Below, piece after piece: positions 28,469 to 35,875 of a stretch of DNA of 64,000 nt (position 1 is the first letter of the stretch; the number at the start of each line of letters is the position of its first letter). Origin of the DNA: Tychonema sp. LEGE 06208 (GTDB lineage: Bacteria; Cyanobacteriota; Cyanobacteriia; Cyanobacteriales; Microcoleaceae). The notes beneath the pieces are model-generated. The model ran no database searches and had not been told where the DNA came from. It saw only the letters and a list, made by a program, of their open reading frames with translations. Position numbers and translations under genes: made by a program. The DNA lies in the NCBI RefSeq assembly GCF_015207505.1, contig NZ_JADEWT010000021.1, forward strand, positions 1-64,000, written 5' to 3'.

Positions 28469-30679
28469 TTAAGGATGCAAAAACTCTAAATGATCTCCGG
28501 GAACAGATCGCAATCTAGCCGCCGATCCTTGCACTTTCAACCTGCCGCGTTCTAACATGATAATCCAATCGGCGCGATCGATCACTCGCGGCCTGTGACT
28601 GATAAAAATCGTGGTTTTCCCGTGCCGGTACATCAGCAAATTTTCCAAAACTTCCGCCTCGCTGGCGGGGTCTAGCCCTGCGGTAGATTCGTCTAAAATC
28701 AATACGGGCGGGTTGTTGAGAATCGCGCGGGCGATCGCCAATCTCTGTCTTTGTCCCCCAGAAATATTCGCTCCAAACTCCCCTAAAACAGTTTGATACT
28801 TATCAGGTAATTGGCTGATAAACTCATCAGCCCCCGCAAGTTTACACACTTTCACAATCTGTTCAAAGCTAGCATCTGGACTCCCCAAACGAAAATTATC
28901 TATAATCGAACGGCTCCAAAAATGCGCTTCTTGAGGAACTAGAACCACCTGCTGTCTGAGACTGTCTAGAGACAAATCTTGCAAATTGTAACCGCCAATT
29001 CTCACATTACCCGATTGCAGCGGATACAAACCAGCAATTACCTTAGCAAGCGTACTTTTTCCGCAACCAGAATAGCCGATTAAAGCAATTGCTTGACCCC
29101 CAGGAAACGTCACAGAAAAATTTTCCAGCAAGTCAAGTCTACCGGGATAGTGAAAATTCACATTCTTGCAAACAATCTCATCGCGACCTTGAATCGTGAC
29201 CGCAGGTTTATTACTATCATTCTTAGTTTCCGGTGCAGCATCAATCACTTCGGAAAGCCGTTGAGTTGCTGTCTGAACGCGAGTCATTTCATCACTAAAT
29301 CCGACTAAAGAAGTCACCCAAGTAGTAAGGTTTTGATTCATACTGATAAACGCCAGCAACTGACCGATACTCAATACCTTGTCAATCACCAAACCGCTGC
29401 CCAACCACAGCAAAGTAATGCCACCAGCAGAAGCAATAAAACCCGAAAAAATATTATTGAGGATGCCAATTTGTGTAGTGCGGAAAGTGAGATTTGCTAA
29501 GCGACCGAAGCGGCTTTGAAATTCCTCCCAAAGTTGCTGGGCGCTGCTAGTAGTTTTTACAGTCAGCGCGCCTTTAAACGTTTCGACTAAAACGCCTTGA
29601 GTTTCTGCTTCCAGCACAAATAAATTCCGCGTCTTTTGCTGCAATACTGGCAGAAATACTACTGTAGATGCAGTCATCAATAGAGCGATCGCTGTTGCAG
29701 CCAACGTTAGTTGCGTGCTGTAAAACAACATAAAAATAAAAGAAACTACCGCTATAAAAAATTGACTGGGCAAGCTGATAGCTACTTGAGAAACTAATTT
29801 ATTTATTTCTTGGATATCTTGTAATCTACTGACGATTTCGCCGCTGCGTCTGGTTTCGTAAAAGCTCAAAGGCAAGCGCAGAAATTTCCGCCCAAATTCC
29901 ATCACCAATCCTAACTCTAAACGCTGGGAAAATTGAGCAATTAAGTTCGACTCAACTAATCCTAAACTGCTGCTAAAAAAATTCATAATTATAACTGCGA
30001 TCGCCACACTTGCCAAAAGTTGCGTGTCGCCCCGCACCAGGATGTCGTCGGTGAGCAGTTGAACTAAAAAAGGCGACGAAATAGACAGCAAACCCAACAC
30101 TACATTCATCAACAATGCTTCGATTAAAATGTGGCGGTAAATCCCAACCCGGCGCATCCATTTTTGTAAGGAATTGGCGGGCGGTTGACCGTCTGCTTCT
30201 GCAAAAAACCGCTCTGGATCTGGGTCTACTAGCAAGCACAGCCAATCTGTCCAACCCGCTGCTAATTCTTCTTTAGAAACATAGCGCAGACCAATGGCGG
30301 GATCTGCGATCGCATATTTATTGCCCTGTTTTCCGTACAAAACAACCCAATGATACCCGCTCCAGTGAATAATGGCCGGCAAAGGTGCTTCATCAATTTT
30401 GTCTAAAATAGCAGCGGCTGCTCGCACGGATCGAGCATTAAGACCGATCGCCTCAGCCCCCTGTTTCAAACCCAGTAAAGTCGTCCCCTTTTGACCGGTA
30501 CCGGCAAATTCTCGCAAGCGACTAATTGTAAAATTCTGTCCGTAAAATTTGGCGATAGAAGCCAAACAAGCCGCCCCGCAATCTTCTTCACTTTGCTGGA
30601 GAACAACCTGATATTTCTTAAACCTGTTTACTTGTCCGAATAATGGCATTTTGCCGATCAAAGGAATATTTTTTAACAT
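28469..30679 (-). CDS. Peptidase-containing ABC exporter (C39-type PCAT)
   Basis: The 736-residue protein both cleaves and exports leader peptides ending in Gly-Gly. The N-terminal C39 cysteine protease (about 22-150) has QSEEDCGAACLASIAKFYG with Cys34, and a catalytic His/Asp pair in GYHWVVLYG and IADPAIG. Six membrane helices span about 165-450. The nucleotide-binding domain has Walker A GYSGCGKST at 535, signature ISGGQRQRLAIARA and Walker B VLILDEST. It is transcribed in the same direction as, and downstream of, three genes encoding double-glycine peptides (30813-31736). An HlyD adaptor is encoded divergently beyond them. Together they make a type I peptide export system. Confidence 0.95.
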   Translation of the reverse strand: MLKNIPLIGKMPLFGQVNRFKKYQVVLQQSEEDCGAACLASIAKFYGQNFTISRLREFAGTGQKGTTLLGLKQGAEAIGLNARSVRAAAAILDKIDEAPLPAIIHWSGYHWVVLYGKQGNKYAIADPAIGLRYVSKEELAAGWTDWLCLLVDPDPERFFAEADGQPPANSLQKWMRRVGIYRHILIEALLMNVVLGLLSISSPFLVQLLTDDILVRGDTQLLASVAIAVIIMNFFSSSLGLVESNLIAQFSQRLELGLVMEFGRKFLRLPLSFYETRRSGEIVSRLQDIQEINKLVSQVAISLPSQFFIAVVSFIFMLFYSTQLTLAATAIALLMTASTVVFLPVLQQKTRNLFVLEAETQGVLVETFKGALTVKTTSSAQQLWEEFQSRFGRLANLTFRTTQIGILNNIFSGFIASAGGITLLWLGSGLVIDKVLSIGQLLAFISMNQNLTTWVTSLVGFSDEMTRVQTATQRLSEVIDAAPETKNDSNKPAVTIQGRDEIVCKNVNFHYPGRLDLLENFSVTFPGGQAIALIGYSGCGKSTLAKVIAGLYPLQSGNVRIGGYNLQDLSLDSLRQQVVLVPQEAHFWSRSIIDNFRLGSPDASFEQIVKVCKLAGADEFISQLPDKYQTVLGEFGANISGGQRQRLAIARAILNNPPVLILDESTAGLDPASEAEVLENLLMYRHGKTTIFISHRPRVIDRADWIIMLERGRLKVQGSAARLRSVPGDHLEFLHP

Positions 30680-30743
30680 TTTGCCAATTGAATAATGAGT
30701 AGAGCATAATGAACACTACTCCTCACCCACTACCCAATCAGCA

Positions 30744-30773
30744 AAAAGCACCCATAAAGTTATGGGTGCTTTT
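30744..30773 (-). terminator. Strong hairpin after peptide gene A
   Basis: AAAAGCACCCATA (30744-30756) pairs perfectly with TATGGGTGCTTTT (30761-30773) around AAGT. On the minus strand it follows the first peptide gene. A decayed copy near 31083-31109 follows peptide gene B, showing that the duplicated unit included the terminator. Confidence 0.85.
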
Positions 30774-30812
30774 CAATCAAGAGTTAGAGAGCTGAATTCA
30801 CAGCCCTAAATT

Positions 30813-31004
30813 TTATGAGTAGCCGTAGCGGACTACTCTTCTGAAGGAACCGTCGCAATTCCGGCGGTAAACTACCCAACTGCGGCGGCGTCCACGGTTA
30901 CAGTCGTTGTAGCGATTATTGGCATAATAGTAACCGCCGTTGACGCTAGCTGATTCTTCAGGGGTGAGTTCAGCAAACAGTGAATTTTCCTTAGTGTCTT
31001 TCAT
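30813..31004 (-). CDS. Double-glycine leader peptide precursor A (Arg/Tyr-rich)
   Basis: The 63-residue precursor has a 24-residue leader ending FAELTPEESASVNGG, the form cleaved by C39 exporters. The predicted core is 39 residues, begins YYYANNRYNDC and ends RRVVRYGYS. It has ten Arg, seven Tyr, one Trp and only two Cys (core positions 11 and 26), which could form one disulfide. Net charge is about +8. An AAAGGAG ribosome-binding site precedes the ATG. It is nearly identical to the gene at 31150. No lanthionine, radical-SAM or cyclodehydratase gene is nearby. It may be an unmodified cationic bacteriocin or a signalling peptide. I know no described family with this core. Confidence 0.82.
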   Translation of the reverse strand: MKDTKENSLFAELTPEESASVNGGYYYANNRYNDCNRGRRRSWVVYRRNCDGSFRRVVRYGYS

Positions 31005-31149
31005 GATTTGACTCCTTTCAAGGTTAAAAGTTTTTAACAGAAACTAGAAATTATTTACAATTTCTACAGCCTCGCTCAAATAAAGCACAATGAAATTATG
31101 GGTGCTTTCTCGATCGACAGTTAGAGAGCTGAATTCACAGCCCTAAACT

Positions 31150-31341
31150 TTATGAGTAGCCGTAGCGGACTACTCTTCTGTAGGAACCGTCGCAATTCCG
31201 GCGGTAAACTACCCAACTGCGGCGGCTTCCACGGTTACAGTCGTTGTAGTTATTATTGGCATAATAGTAACCGCCGTTGACGCTAGCTGATTCTTCAGGG
31301 GTGAGTTCAGCAAACAGTGAATTTTCCTTAGTGTCTTTCAT
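31150..31341 (-). CDS. Double-glycine leader peptide precursor B (Arg/Tyr-rich)
   Basis: This 63-residue precursor is a tandem duplicate of the gene at 30813, 337 bases away. The 24-residue leader is identical in protein and DNA. The core differs at three places: Asn for Arg at core position 7, Ser for Arg at 15, and Tyr for Phe at 30. Net charge is about +6. Both Cys are kept. The ribosome-binding site and the upstream GATTTGACTCCTTT block are also duplicated. All amino acid changes lie in the core, which suggests that the leader is under constraint while the core diverges. The same exporter at 28469 should process it. Confidence 0.82.
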   Translation of the reverse strand: MKDTKENSLFAELTPEESASVNGGYYYANNNYNDCNRGSRRSWVVYRRNCDGSYRRVVRYGYS

Positions 31342-31511
31342 GATTTGACTCCTTTTAATTTGACAAGATGGAACGAGAACTATAAGTTTTATAAGTTTTA
31401 TATAGCCTCGTGTAATTACTAACTAATAGTTCTTTAAGTGCTGTGCGTGTTCCGGAATGTTACTGAGATATTTTCCAAATTTCTTTCGATCGCGCTACCA
31501 GACTCACCTAT

Positions 31512-31736
31512 CTAGACTATTAGGGTTTTGTAAGGGCGCGATCGGTTCGGATCGTACAGATACAACTGGTTCGGCTGCGGCATGAAAAACAGCATATTGA
31601 GGTCATTGCTGCTGTTTTCGCTCCCGCTGTTGCTGTTATTACTGCTGACACTGCTGGTAGGGCTGCCACCGCTGACAGTAGCAGATTCTCGTTCGGTGAG
31701 CTCGGTAAAGAATGAATTTTGTTGATTTTCCGGCAT
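31512..31736 (-). CDS. Double-glycine leader peptide precursor C (Ser/Asn-rich)
   Basis: The 74-residue protein shares the leader plan of its two neighbours: 24 residues, with FFTELTERESATVSGG before the cut. The core is quite different: about 50 residues, with a Ser/Asn-rich half (SVSSNNSNSGS) and a hydrophobic half (MLFFMPQPNQLYLYDPN). It has no cysteine. GAGG lies shortly before the ATG on the minus strand. It should be a substrate of the same exporter. The low-complexity part could also make it a structural or surface peptide rather than a bacteriocin. Confidence 0.72.
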   Translation of the reverse strand: MPENQQNSFFTELTERESATVSGGSPTSSVSSNNSNSGSENSSNDLNMLFFMPQPNQLYLYDPNRSRPYKTLIV

Positions 31737-32323
31737 GAGGAACTCCTATTAATACCTATGTACTTACTTACGTACATCTCCCCAAAAAACCGGGTAACAG
31801 CGCCAAAAATCATTAATGCAATGTCCTAGTTTCATGAATGTTGCCCGCTTTGTCCACCATTCTTGATGTTTGGGGAAATTTGCGGGTGGGGACAGCAAAG
31901 CTGTGCGGATTTTGACCTTGACCCCGTGAATTTTGATTTATATAGTCCTGGACGCACTCCTTGTCAGATACCGGGTTTTTTGAGGAAAATCTTTGGTTGC
32001 AGCCCGCAGACTCGATCGAAAACCCAGTTTTTTAGGGCTTGATTGGTAAGCCGTATTAGACTTCTCAACCTATCCTTGGTATCCGGAAAACGGAAAATAA
32101 ATATGACAAAAATAATAAACGATCGCTCTCTTCCTTTTCATTTTACTATTTGAAATGAGAGATGAAAACATTGAAAATAACGGATTTTATAAGGGTTTAG
32201 AGCTTGTATACAGTTGCATTGTTTTTTAGAACTGGTATCAAAACTCAAAACTATCCTCCTCCCCTCCAACTCAAAACTCAAAGCTCAAAGCTCAAAATTA
32301 TTCCTCTCACCCCAGCACCCACC
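31737..32323. other. Divergent promoter region of the peptide/export cluster
   Basis: No gene is visible. The region should contain the minus-strand promoter for the peptide genes and the plus-strand promoter for hlyD. Short ACCGGGTTTTTTGAGG/AAAACCCAGTTTTT pieces (about 31970-32040) form weak inverted repeats. An ACTCAAA/GCTCAAA heptamer run at about 32262-32300 lies just before the hlyD start. Confidence 0.5.
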
Positions 32324-33439
32324 ATGTCTCTCACTCCCGAACCCACACCCGCTGAAACCTTTAATAACGACCAGTTTTTGCCCCCTGTCAGCCGTTGGAC
32401 AAGTTTGGGGGGAATTTTGATGGTGGCCACCTTTGGCGGGGCGATCGCCCTGGCTAGTGTCACCAAATACAGCGCCACAGTCAAAGCAGAGGCGATCGTC
32501 CGTCCCGCCGGAGAAGTGCGCGTCGTGGAAGCGGCCACCGAAGGAACCGTCGAAAGCATTGCTGTCAGCGAAAATCAGACAGTGAAAGCCGGAGATACGA
32601 TCGCAGTTGTAGACGGTTCGCGTTTGGGAACTCAAAACAAGCAATTCCAAGACATTATTAATCAGTCTCAAGCAGCAGCACAGCAAATCAACCAGCAACT
32701 GCGCGACTTAGAAAATCAAATTTTGGCCAGCGCCAAACTTAAAAGCATCGAAAGTGGAAGTTCCGCCGAACAGGAATTAGTCGAATCCGCTTTAGTCAAA
32801 ATCGCCGCATCGCTGCCGGATGTTGCCGAGAAACTGGGTAGAAGTCGGCGGGTTTTGCTCGTCAAGCGATCGACCATCCAACAACAATTGACTCAAGCTA
32901 AAAAACAGCTAAATCAAGTTGAGTCACAACTCAAAAATAGCGTGATCCGCGCCCCCGCTGATGGTACAATTCTCAAATTGGAAGTACAAAATACCGGTCA
33001 AACCGTACAAGCGGGCAGCGCGATCGCCCAAATCGTCCCCAGCGACGTACCCCTGGTAGTCAAAGCCAAAGTCACATCCCAAGACATCGCCCGCATCCAA
33101 ATCGGTCAACCCGTACAGATCAGAATTTCCGCTTTACCCTTCCCCGACTACGGCACATTGAAAGGAACAGTCAGCGCGATCGCCCCAGATGCGATCGCCC
33201 CTCAAAATCCCGCCAATAATTCAGGTGGATCTTATTACGAAGTAGCAATCAAGCCCCAACAAACCTATTTAACAAAACTCCAATCCAGCAGCGGTCAATT
33301 CTTCGGAAATTCCCAGGTAAATACCCCCCGCCAGTATTCAATTCAATCGGGAATGGAGGGCAGAGCCGATATTATTACGGGCCAAGAAACAGTCCTCACA
33401 TTTATTTTACGTAAAGCCCGTTTGCTGACAGATTTGTGA
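32324..33439 (+). CDS. HlyD-family membrane fusion protein
   Basis: The periplasmic adaptor links an inner-membrane exporter to an outer-membrane channel. From the ATG at 32324 it has 371 residues. A single membrane anchor lies near 25-48 (GGILMVATFGGAIALASV). A biotinyl-lipoyl half follows (GTVESIAVSENQTVKAGD), then a coiled-coil hairpin rich in Gln and a second lipoyl half (IRAPADGTILKLEV), then a beta-barrel domain. A longer reading from a TTG at 32204 would add residues encoded by heptamer repeats, so I reject it. It is encoded divergently from the PCAT exporter and the peptide genes and is the natural partner of the exporter. An outer-membrane TolC partner must be encoded elsewhere. Confidence 0.92.
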   Translation: MSLTPEPTPAETFNNDQFLPPVSRWTSLGGILMVATFGGAIALASVTKYSATVKAEAIVRPAGEVRVVEAATEGTVESIAVSENQTVKAGDTIAVVDGSRLGTQNKQFQDIINQSQAAAQQINQQLRDLENQILASAKLKSIESGSSAEQELVESALVKIAASLPDVAEKLGRSRRVLLVKRSTIQQQLTQAKKQLNQVESQLKNSVIRAPADGTILKLEVQNTGQTVQAGSAIAQIVPSDVPLVVKAKVTSQDIARIQIGQPVQIRISALPFPDYGTLKGTVSAIAPDAIAPQNPANNSGGSYYEVAIKPQQTYLTKLQSSSGQFFGNSQVNTPRQYSIQSGMEGRADIITGQETVLTFILRKARLLTDL

Positions 33440-33617
33440 TTAGTCAGTTGTTAGTTGTTAGTTGTTAGTTGTTAGTTGTTAGTTGTTAGTTGTTAATTGT
33501 TAATTGTTAGTTGTCAACAGTCAGCAGTCAACAGTCAGCAGTCAACAGTCAGCCGTCAACAGTCAACAGTCAACAGTCAACAGTCAACAGTCAGCCGTCA
33601 ACAGTCAACAGTCAGAA
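33440..33617. repeat. TTAGTTG and CAACAGTCAGC heptamer arrays
   Basis: Two arrays lie back to back: (TTAGTTG)n up to about 33508, then (CAACAGT)n/(CAGCAGT)n up to about 33617. No gene is present in the spacer before trpS. Confidence 0.92.
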
Positions 33618-33685
33618 AATTACAAGAGCGGAAATTGAAATAACGTGTCAAAATAGAAATGTGAAATCAATTCTATTCTTTCCTC

Positions 33686-34696: not shown

Positions 34697-34981
34697 TTGT
34701 TATTGGTTACTGGTTAGTTGTTAGTTGTTATTGGTTACTGGTTAGTTGTTAGTTGTTATTGGTTACTGGTTATTTGTTAGTTGTTATTGGTTACTGGTTA
34801 TTTGTTAGTTGTTAAGAATTACAACTGCCAACTGCCAACTGCCAACTGCCAACTGTCAACTGCCAACTGCCAACTGCCAACTGCCAACTGCCAACTGCCA
34901 ACTGTCAACTGCCAACTGCCAACTGCCAACTCCCAACTGTCAACTGTCAACTGTCAACTGCCAACTGCCAACTATCAACTA
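34697..34981. repeat. TTGGTTACTGG and (CAACTGC)n arrays
   Basis: From 34697 to about 34810 a unit of about 21-28 bases (TTGTTATTGGTTACTGGTTA) repeats. From about 34820 to 34981 CAACTGC/CAACTGT heptamers repeat. The array keeps one frame open into the next gene, so a naive start call is wrong there. Confidence 0.93.
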
Positions 34982-34984
34982 ACT

Positions 34985-35875
34985 ATGAACCGTTTTCGTA
35001 CAGCCTGCACCACCCCTGGAGAATTTATAATTACCGCCGAAGTTGCCCCGCCAAAAGGCGGCGATATGACTCACACGATCGCAATGGCTGAACTTCTAAA
35101 AAACAGAGTTCACGCTATTAATATCACAGACGGCAGCCGCGCAGTGCTGCGAATGTGCCCGCTAGCAGTTTCCGCGATTCTATTGCAGCACGGCATTGAG
35201 CCGATTTGTCAAGTTGCTTGTCGCGATCGCAATCAAATAGGCCTGCAAGCCGATCTCATGGGAGCCCACGCTTTAGGCATCCATAATATCTTGGCACTCA
35301 CAGGCGATCCAGTCAAAGCCGGCGACCATCCAAAAGCCAAAAGTGTATTCGATTTAGAATCAGTGCGGCTGCTGCAAGTCATTCAAAAAATGAACGGCGG
35401 CAAAGACTGGAATGACAAAGCTTTAACAGACGGAATTACCGATTTATTTGTCGGTGCCGCTGTCGATCCGCAATCCCCCAGTTGGTCTGGTTTGCAAAGT
35501 CGATTCGAGAAAAAAGTAGAAGCCGGAGCACAGTTTTTTCAGAGCCAATTAATTACAGACTTTGAAGTTTTTGATAAGTTTATGCACCACATTGCTGCTG
35601 GCTCCAACAAACCAATTTTAGCAGGAATATTTTTGTTTAAATCAGCTAAAAATGCTGAATTTATTAAAAAATACGTGCCGGGAGTTCACATCCCGCAAGA
35701 GACGATCGATCGTTTGGCAAAATCCCCAGCACCTTTGCAGGAAGGCATAAAAATTGCGGCCGAACAAGTCAAGCTAGCGCGGCAATTGTGTCAAGGAGTT
35801 CACCTGATGGCAGTGAAGCGAGAAGATTTGATTCCTCAAATTTTGGATTTGGCGGGAATCGAGCCGCTGAGTTAA
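34985..35875 (+). CDS. Methylenetetrahydrofolate reductase-family protein
   Basis: The 296-residue protein is a flavin TIM barrel of the MetF family, which reduces methylene-THF to methyl-THF for methionine synthesis. Recognised pieces are [62 protein letters not shown] and [16 protein letters not shown]. It is the divergent form common in cyanobacteria. The true start is the ATG at 34985. An upstream in-frame start would add 68 residues of pure QLPTANC repeats encoded by the heptamer array. The enzyme's activity is inferred from the family. Confidence 0.85.

Follow-up and report, generated by a model that had tools for sequence, protein, structure and literature searches.

A compact type I secretion cluster, in which three small genes for double-glycine precursors lie between a C39-peptidase ATP-binding cassette (ABC) exporter and a divergent HlyD-type adaptor, occupies positions 28469-33439 of a 64,000-nucleotide stretch (the window; positions 1 to 64,000 of contig NZ_JADEWT010000021.1) from the draft genome of Tychonema sp. 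LEGE 06208. The arrangement had been described in an earlier note on this DNA, and both open reading frames (ORFs) and Pfam domains confirm it. The cluster encodes a genus-wide two-part peptide with an extreme, easily tested composition; the new element is its core type, rich in tyrosine and arginine (Tyr/Arg), while the kind of export cluster is already known (PMC3140520, cited, like the other papers below, from part of its text). We tentatively place first the reading that the C39 exporter and HlyD export small peptides with a structural or adhesive part in the cell surface or matrix.

Two of the three precursors (A type) carry 24-residue leaders that end in GG and are identical even in DNA, followed by 39-residue cores with 10 and 8 Arg, 7 and 8 Tyr, and two Cys each in precursors 1 and 2, respectively, so that the ORFs bear out the near-identical pair reported in the earlier note. 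The cores differ by three amino acids, corresponding to four nucleotide changes, none of them silent. Both genes belong to a tandem duplication (286 nt, 91% identity, spacing 337), and this duplication, matches across the genus, and a pooled ratio of nonsynonymous to synonymous substitution rates (dN/dS) of 0.32 over 36 distinct A genes set the pair beyond chance. Ribosome sites of the AGGAG type were seen by eye upstream of the precursor starts. An alignment of 30 distinct A cores has invariant V21, Y22, R23, G28, V33, and Y36 in a C-terminal stretch, before which the cores vary in length and letters; the A core is a variable Tyr/Arg segment joined to a conserved predicted beta-hairpin. The AlphaFold2 model places strands at residues 16-24 and 30-38, with a mean predicted local distance difference test score (pLDDT) of 87 at residues 21-30 and below 50 at residues 1-9, and is weak overall (mean 67.9; predicted template modeling score [pTM], 0.29).

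The proposal of a disulfide did not hold as a conserved feature, since two Cys occur in just 21 of the 30 distinct A cores, with one in 5 and three in 4. The A core resembles tachyplesin-type Arg/Tyr-rich antimicrobials in being an Arg- and Tyr-rich cationic hairpin. Tachyplesin-type hairpins are locked by two disulfides, whereas the present cores lack a conserved Cys pair, and one Cys falls outside the predicted hairpin.

Composition sets the cores apart. The 39 distinct Tyr/Arg cores of the genus contain 25.3% Arg, 0.1% Lys, 20.9% Tyr, 1.8% Phe, and 4.9% Asp plus Glu, against 4.6, 4.8, 2.6, 4.2, and 10.2% in nine large window proteins taken for comparison; outside the genus but within the order, 21 distinct cores have 19.7% Arg, 0.6% Lys, and 29.3% Tyr. 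These tallies, like those of dN/dS, lack the B-type peptides of loci L041, L099, and L104, which the peptide pattern missed. The core type had been called unfamiliar, which the searches uphold: no family for the Tyr/Arg cores was found by sequence in Pfam, NCBIfam, or the Protein Data Bank (PDB) for the three precursors (nine relatives were also run against Pfam and NCBIfam), with no PDB matches at all, and apart from a crystallin-type core at locus L063 (see below) the family hits of the precursors and relatives fell below curated cut-offs. The curated NHLP/N11P precursor models in NCBIfam gave no match at E ≤1 for the three precursors, and a plasmid collection held no match. A fold search of the PDB with the A-core model, which is very small, returned 69 matches at E ≤10 and none at E ≤0.001. 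In openly licensed literature, judged by title or the start of the abstract, we found no paper that deals with double-glycine peptides rich in Tyr/Arg.

An exporter match of at least 85% identity occurs in 28 of the 29 genomes of the window's Microcoleus/Tychonema genus (two are cut by contig ends), and the peptide was likewise matched in 28; among these, G260 has a decayed copy, and the copies in G166 and G300 are truncated where their contigs end. The sole genome without exporter and peptide is 74% complete, and both are present in all 25 good genomes. The order proposed earlier for inspection in related genomes is mostly kept in the genus loci read (exporter, A genes, C gene, divergent HlyD), with the genes remaining beside the exporter, and the cluster often sits between a synthase-like gene and a tRNA synthetase gene. 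A scan of 84,980 species placed the A peptide and its relatives at 25 loci, mostly in records named Microcoleus, Tychonema, or Oscillatoriales, although its two short patterns may miss diverged cores. Order-wide, a peptide match at E ≤0.01 occurred in 36 of 291 genomes and an exporter relative at E ≤1e-220 in 141; a phylum search gave 25 of 386, mostly leader matches, some of them with stops and probably due to chance. In other filamentous genera, similar Tyr/Arg cores are encoded next to related exporters, and HlyD is divergent there in almost every case. Copy number also varies: genome G153 has extra identical tandem peptide copies, and loci L059 and L061 hold arrays of 5 and 7 Tyr/Arg genes, respectively, with three distinct cores each and no exporter of the family in the locus.

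The precursors are under purifying selection. By region and over all pairs, dN/dS was 0.22 in the leader, 0.38 in the variable part, and 0.29 in the hairpin of the 36 distinct A genes, and 0.26, 0.47, and 0.26 in the same parts of 26 C genes; the highest value over close pairs was 0.60, in the C linker. Constraint is weakest in the linkers, and there is no arms-race signal. These data bear on the possibility that the cluster makes an unmodified bacteriocin or microcin, a cationic beta-hairpin that harms the membranes of competing bacteria. A double-glycine leader with a C39 exporter is typical of bacteriocins (PMC3140520), and the 30 distinct A cores carry net charges of +5 to +12 together with the predicted hairpin. 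Against this stand the near-universal presence in the genus, constraint instead of diversifying selection, a Cys pair that is not conserved, and a companion C peptide that is not cationic. Nor was a conserved cognate immunity gene found beside the precursors: between exporter and HlyD, no non-precursor ORF of at least 25 codons is open in all 26 genus loci, the best outside the precursors and their other frames being one of 30 codons, over the terminator-like hairpin described below, that is open in 18. We consider a bacteriocin possible and rather unlikely, and do not favor it over a role at the surface or in the matrix.

The third precursor is of the C type. Its leader (ELTERESATVSGG) is related to the A leader, and its ORF is open without a stop in all 26 genus loci. 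The window's core has 50 residues, no Cys, and a net charge of 0, and all 24 C-type cores lack Cys and have net charges from -3 to +3. The description of the locus as a cationic double-glycine export cluster therefore stands for the A peptides and fails for the third. The model of the C-type core predicts strands at residues 33-37 and 45-49 (mean 62.2; pTM, 0.29). By eye, one and the same hairpin seems to recur in variant form at the C-type end (YLYDPNRSRPYKTLIV), at the end of the B-type peptides that some of the genus have (YSYNPYFDGRPVHGYV), and in a Tyr/Arg peptide from another genus of the family (locus L049; YMYYPRRERAYRTMVV).

We compared 78 exporter loci, of which 37 were labeled Tyr/Arg, 21 carry other double-glycine candidates, and 20 have none nearby; mapped onto the exporter tree, the Tyr/Arg label needs two changes, compared with a mean of 26.3 in shuffles. 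HlyD lies upstream on the opposite strand in 31 of the 32 Tyr/Arg loci that show one (5 more show none). At loci with other cores it is upstream on the opposite strand in 5 of 19 and downstream on the same strand in 14 (2 more show none), and at loci without candidates the corresponding counts are 5 and 8 of 13 (7 more show none). The two core classes are clear for the best peptide per exporter locus (class values of at least 0.32 versus at most 0.16), and the exporter-less arrays L054 and L062 give intermediate values of 0.20 to 0.29. Three Tyr/Arg labels were set by hand: L110, L043, where the A gene is decayed, and L044, whose intact A gene the peptide pattern missed. The order-level Tyr/Arg loci are a biased sample, 7 of the 47 coming from the peptide search and 40 from the exporter search. 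The tree did not unite all Tyr/Arg loci in a single exporter clade, and a constraint keeping the 37 rows in one group was borderline (approximately unbiased test, p-AU 0.052).

Residues Q28, C34, H110, and D126, which we take to be the catalytic C39 residues, are intact in all 78 aligned exporters; against the NHLM model the window's exporter scores 431 bits, the cut-off being 853. OEP/TolC-type matches occur in one frame of the genome. Because the genome has a total of three C39 domains, a different C39 protein could take over part of this task. Some genus genomes encode a second exporter at 57 to 60% identity in a different neighborhood, with no Tyr/Arg peptide seen nearby (L111-L116). At L063 (9427-9741), a gene with the same kind of leader adjoins a related C39 exporter and has a beta/gamma-crystallin core (E = 4.3e-9; weaker match to Inhibitor_I36), which suggests that the exporter family may carry folded domains too.

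Read in the direction of transcription, the minus strand holds the C-type precursor, the two A-type precursors, a terminator-like hairpin, and the exporter, and the HlyD gene points the opposite way. The hairpin (-20.1 kcal/mol; z, -6.8) recurs in 20 of the 23 genus loci examined; L100, L101, and L102 show different inverted repeats, and it is absent from both sister-genus loci examined. Since this conserved hairpin separates the precursors from the exporter, the precursors are probably made in excess over it. We infer for the hairpin no more than a possible attenuator role, because it was missing from the output of a consensus terminator scan, whose 7 sites were at the chance level (7.0 expected). 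Following what is known of such exporters, the C39 domain would cut each leader after GG, and the cores would leave through the exporter, HlyD, and a TolC-type protein. Outside the cell, the predicted hairpin ends and flexible Tyr/Arg segments may adhere to each other and to the acidic polysaccharide of the sheath and so contribute to the cell surface or the matrix of the mat. The Lys-poor Tyr/Arg composition and the hairpins would suit such self-association, and the identical extra tandem copies (G153, L059, and L061) suggest a dose effect.

The cores might instead be signals that cells of one species secrete and themselves perceive, for instance to coordinate the behavior of filaments. C39 exporters also carry signals (PMC10986499, PMC6363468), and the core's hairpin is well conserved, but no obvious receptor or regulator was seen among the 10 flanking window proteins scanned, and identical tandem copies with variable, low-complexity N-terminal parts would be unusual for signals. 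We regard this as improbable.

A precursor tailored by enzymes encoded elsewhere is less probable still. The earlier note had placed no modification enzyme in reach, and none was found among the same 10 flanking proteins, a scan that covered these rather than the whole genome; LanM, an S8 peptidase, and a second ABC transporter were likewise lacking among them. Unlinked modifying enzymes are, however, known in cyanobacteria (PMC3140520), and genome G277 (L110) departs from the usual order, with about 15.6 kb holding a cyanobactin-like cluster between exporter and peptides. This cluster (approximately 4241-17210 of L110) encodes two PatG/S8 proteins, a YcaO protein, a ThcOx-type oxidase, and two PF19156 proteins; it was noticed in this one genome, the other genus loci not having been scanned for such enzymes.

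By exporter type and neighbors, the cluster fits group III of a survey by Wang et al. in 2011 (PMC3140520). Shared features are a short-type C39 ABC exporter (C39, transmembrane, and ATPase domains only), HlyD, several adjacent double-glycine precursors, and no LanM, S8, or second ABC genes alongside, although the relative G277 has nearby S8-type proteins. In contrast to the NHLP/N11P precursors, which that survey describes as mostly negative, the core here is of a strongly cationic, Lys-poor Tyr/Arg type with a predicted hairpin, and HlyD is divergent with the precursors in between. The survey reports little core conservation, and the text of it covered here does not describe a Tyr/Arg core; Microcoleus bacteriocin clusters are mentioned in general terms only in the covered part of another paper (PMC8546630). 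The nearest precedent is in Synechococcus elongatus PCC 7942, where several small double-glycine proteins and a C39 exporter (EbfG1-4 and PteB) are needed for biofilm (PMC4997328); amyloid is formed by EbfG1-3, whereas EbfG4 is located at the surface and in intercellular space (PMC9981879). This strain is credited with one group III cluster (PMC3140520), presumably the ebfG cluster. We liken the two systems by description, not core sequence: EbfG1-3 have a reported amyloid motif (A, hydrophobic, N, I, small), and the text covered mentions no Tyr/Arg core.

We rank a surface or matrix role first: no conserved immunity ORF was seen beside the precursors, the cluster is almost universal in the genus and under constraint, the peptides occur in tandem copies and have a sticky composition, and EbfG/PteB offers a precedent. 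Several observations weigh against it. In Microcoleus vaginatus HSN003 (L043, 9804-9977; also L137), the A gene has internal stops and has lost its GG while the adjoining C gene is open, so that strain can do without an intact A gene. Neither a cationic charge nor richness in Tyr/Arg is found in the C peptide, an antimicrobial role would suit cationic hairpins just as well, and purifying selection is compatible with a bacteriocin. Mature EbfG proteins are described as lacking homology to proteins of other cyanobacteria (PMC4997328).

A more specific route to the surface or matrix role, which we rate as doubtful, is that short, nearly Lys-free Tyr/Arg chains are exported at high dose and act as "stickers," condensing outside the cell through Tyr-Arg contacts and gluing filaments and sheath. 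Tyr-Arg pairing is a feature of FUS-type condensates. Tyr is a key sticker residue in such condensates (PMC12677899). M. vaginatus, a species of soil crusts, belongs to the window's genus. The genus forms thick mats (PMC8546630). If true, this route would be a bacterial extracellular condensate or adhesive of mat-forming and soil-crust cyanobacteria. Double-glycine export clusters of cyanobacteria are usually classed as bacteriocins, but the set that was tested in S. elongatus makes biofilm (PMC4997328). Should the peptides prove to be matrix, many clusters now called "bacteriocin" would have to be re-read, and mat and crust cohesion would gain a genetic handle.

Table 1. Features of the double-glycine export cluster in the window
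Feature	Position	Strand	Detail or basis
C39-peptidase ABC exporter, 736 aa	28469..30679	-	Pfam Peptidase_C39, ABC_membrane, ABC_tran
Terminator-like hairpin between last precursor and exporter	30743..30774		Folding energy, recurrence in genus
A-type precursor 1, 63 aa	30813..31004	-	Leader 31004-30933, core 30932-30816
A-type precursor 2, 63 aa	31150..31341	-	Leader 31341-31270, core 31269-31153
Tandem duplication with both A genes	30745..31367		Copies 30745-31030 and 31082-31367
C-type precursor, 74 aa	31512..31736	-	Leader 31736-31665, core 31664-31515, Ser/Asn-rich linker and predicted C-terminal hairpin
Gap between divergent genes	31737..32323		Lies between C-type precursor and HlyD
HlyD-type adaptor, probable ATG start	32324..33439	+	Pfam HlyD_3, HlyD_D23

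The HlyD start is more likely this ATG than the TTG at 32204, because relatives align from the ATG and the frame upstream (ORF 32201-32329) is poorly kept, being matched in 2 of 26 genus loci and never without a stop. Lying between divergent genes, the gap would be expected to carry promoters for both sides. It also contains a dispersed repeat (approximately 31940-32044, roughly 40 to 100 bp) that the draft genome matches at 33 other places (E ≤0.001). The flanking genes are housekeeping-like (citramalate/homocitrate synthase-like, Trp/Tyr-type tRNA synthetase, methylenetetrahydrofolate reductase-like, and others). Short tandem repeats, for example, of CAACAGT units, flank the tRNA synthetase gene at 33450-33640 and approximately 34800-34990 and give rise to chance ORFs.

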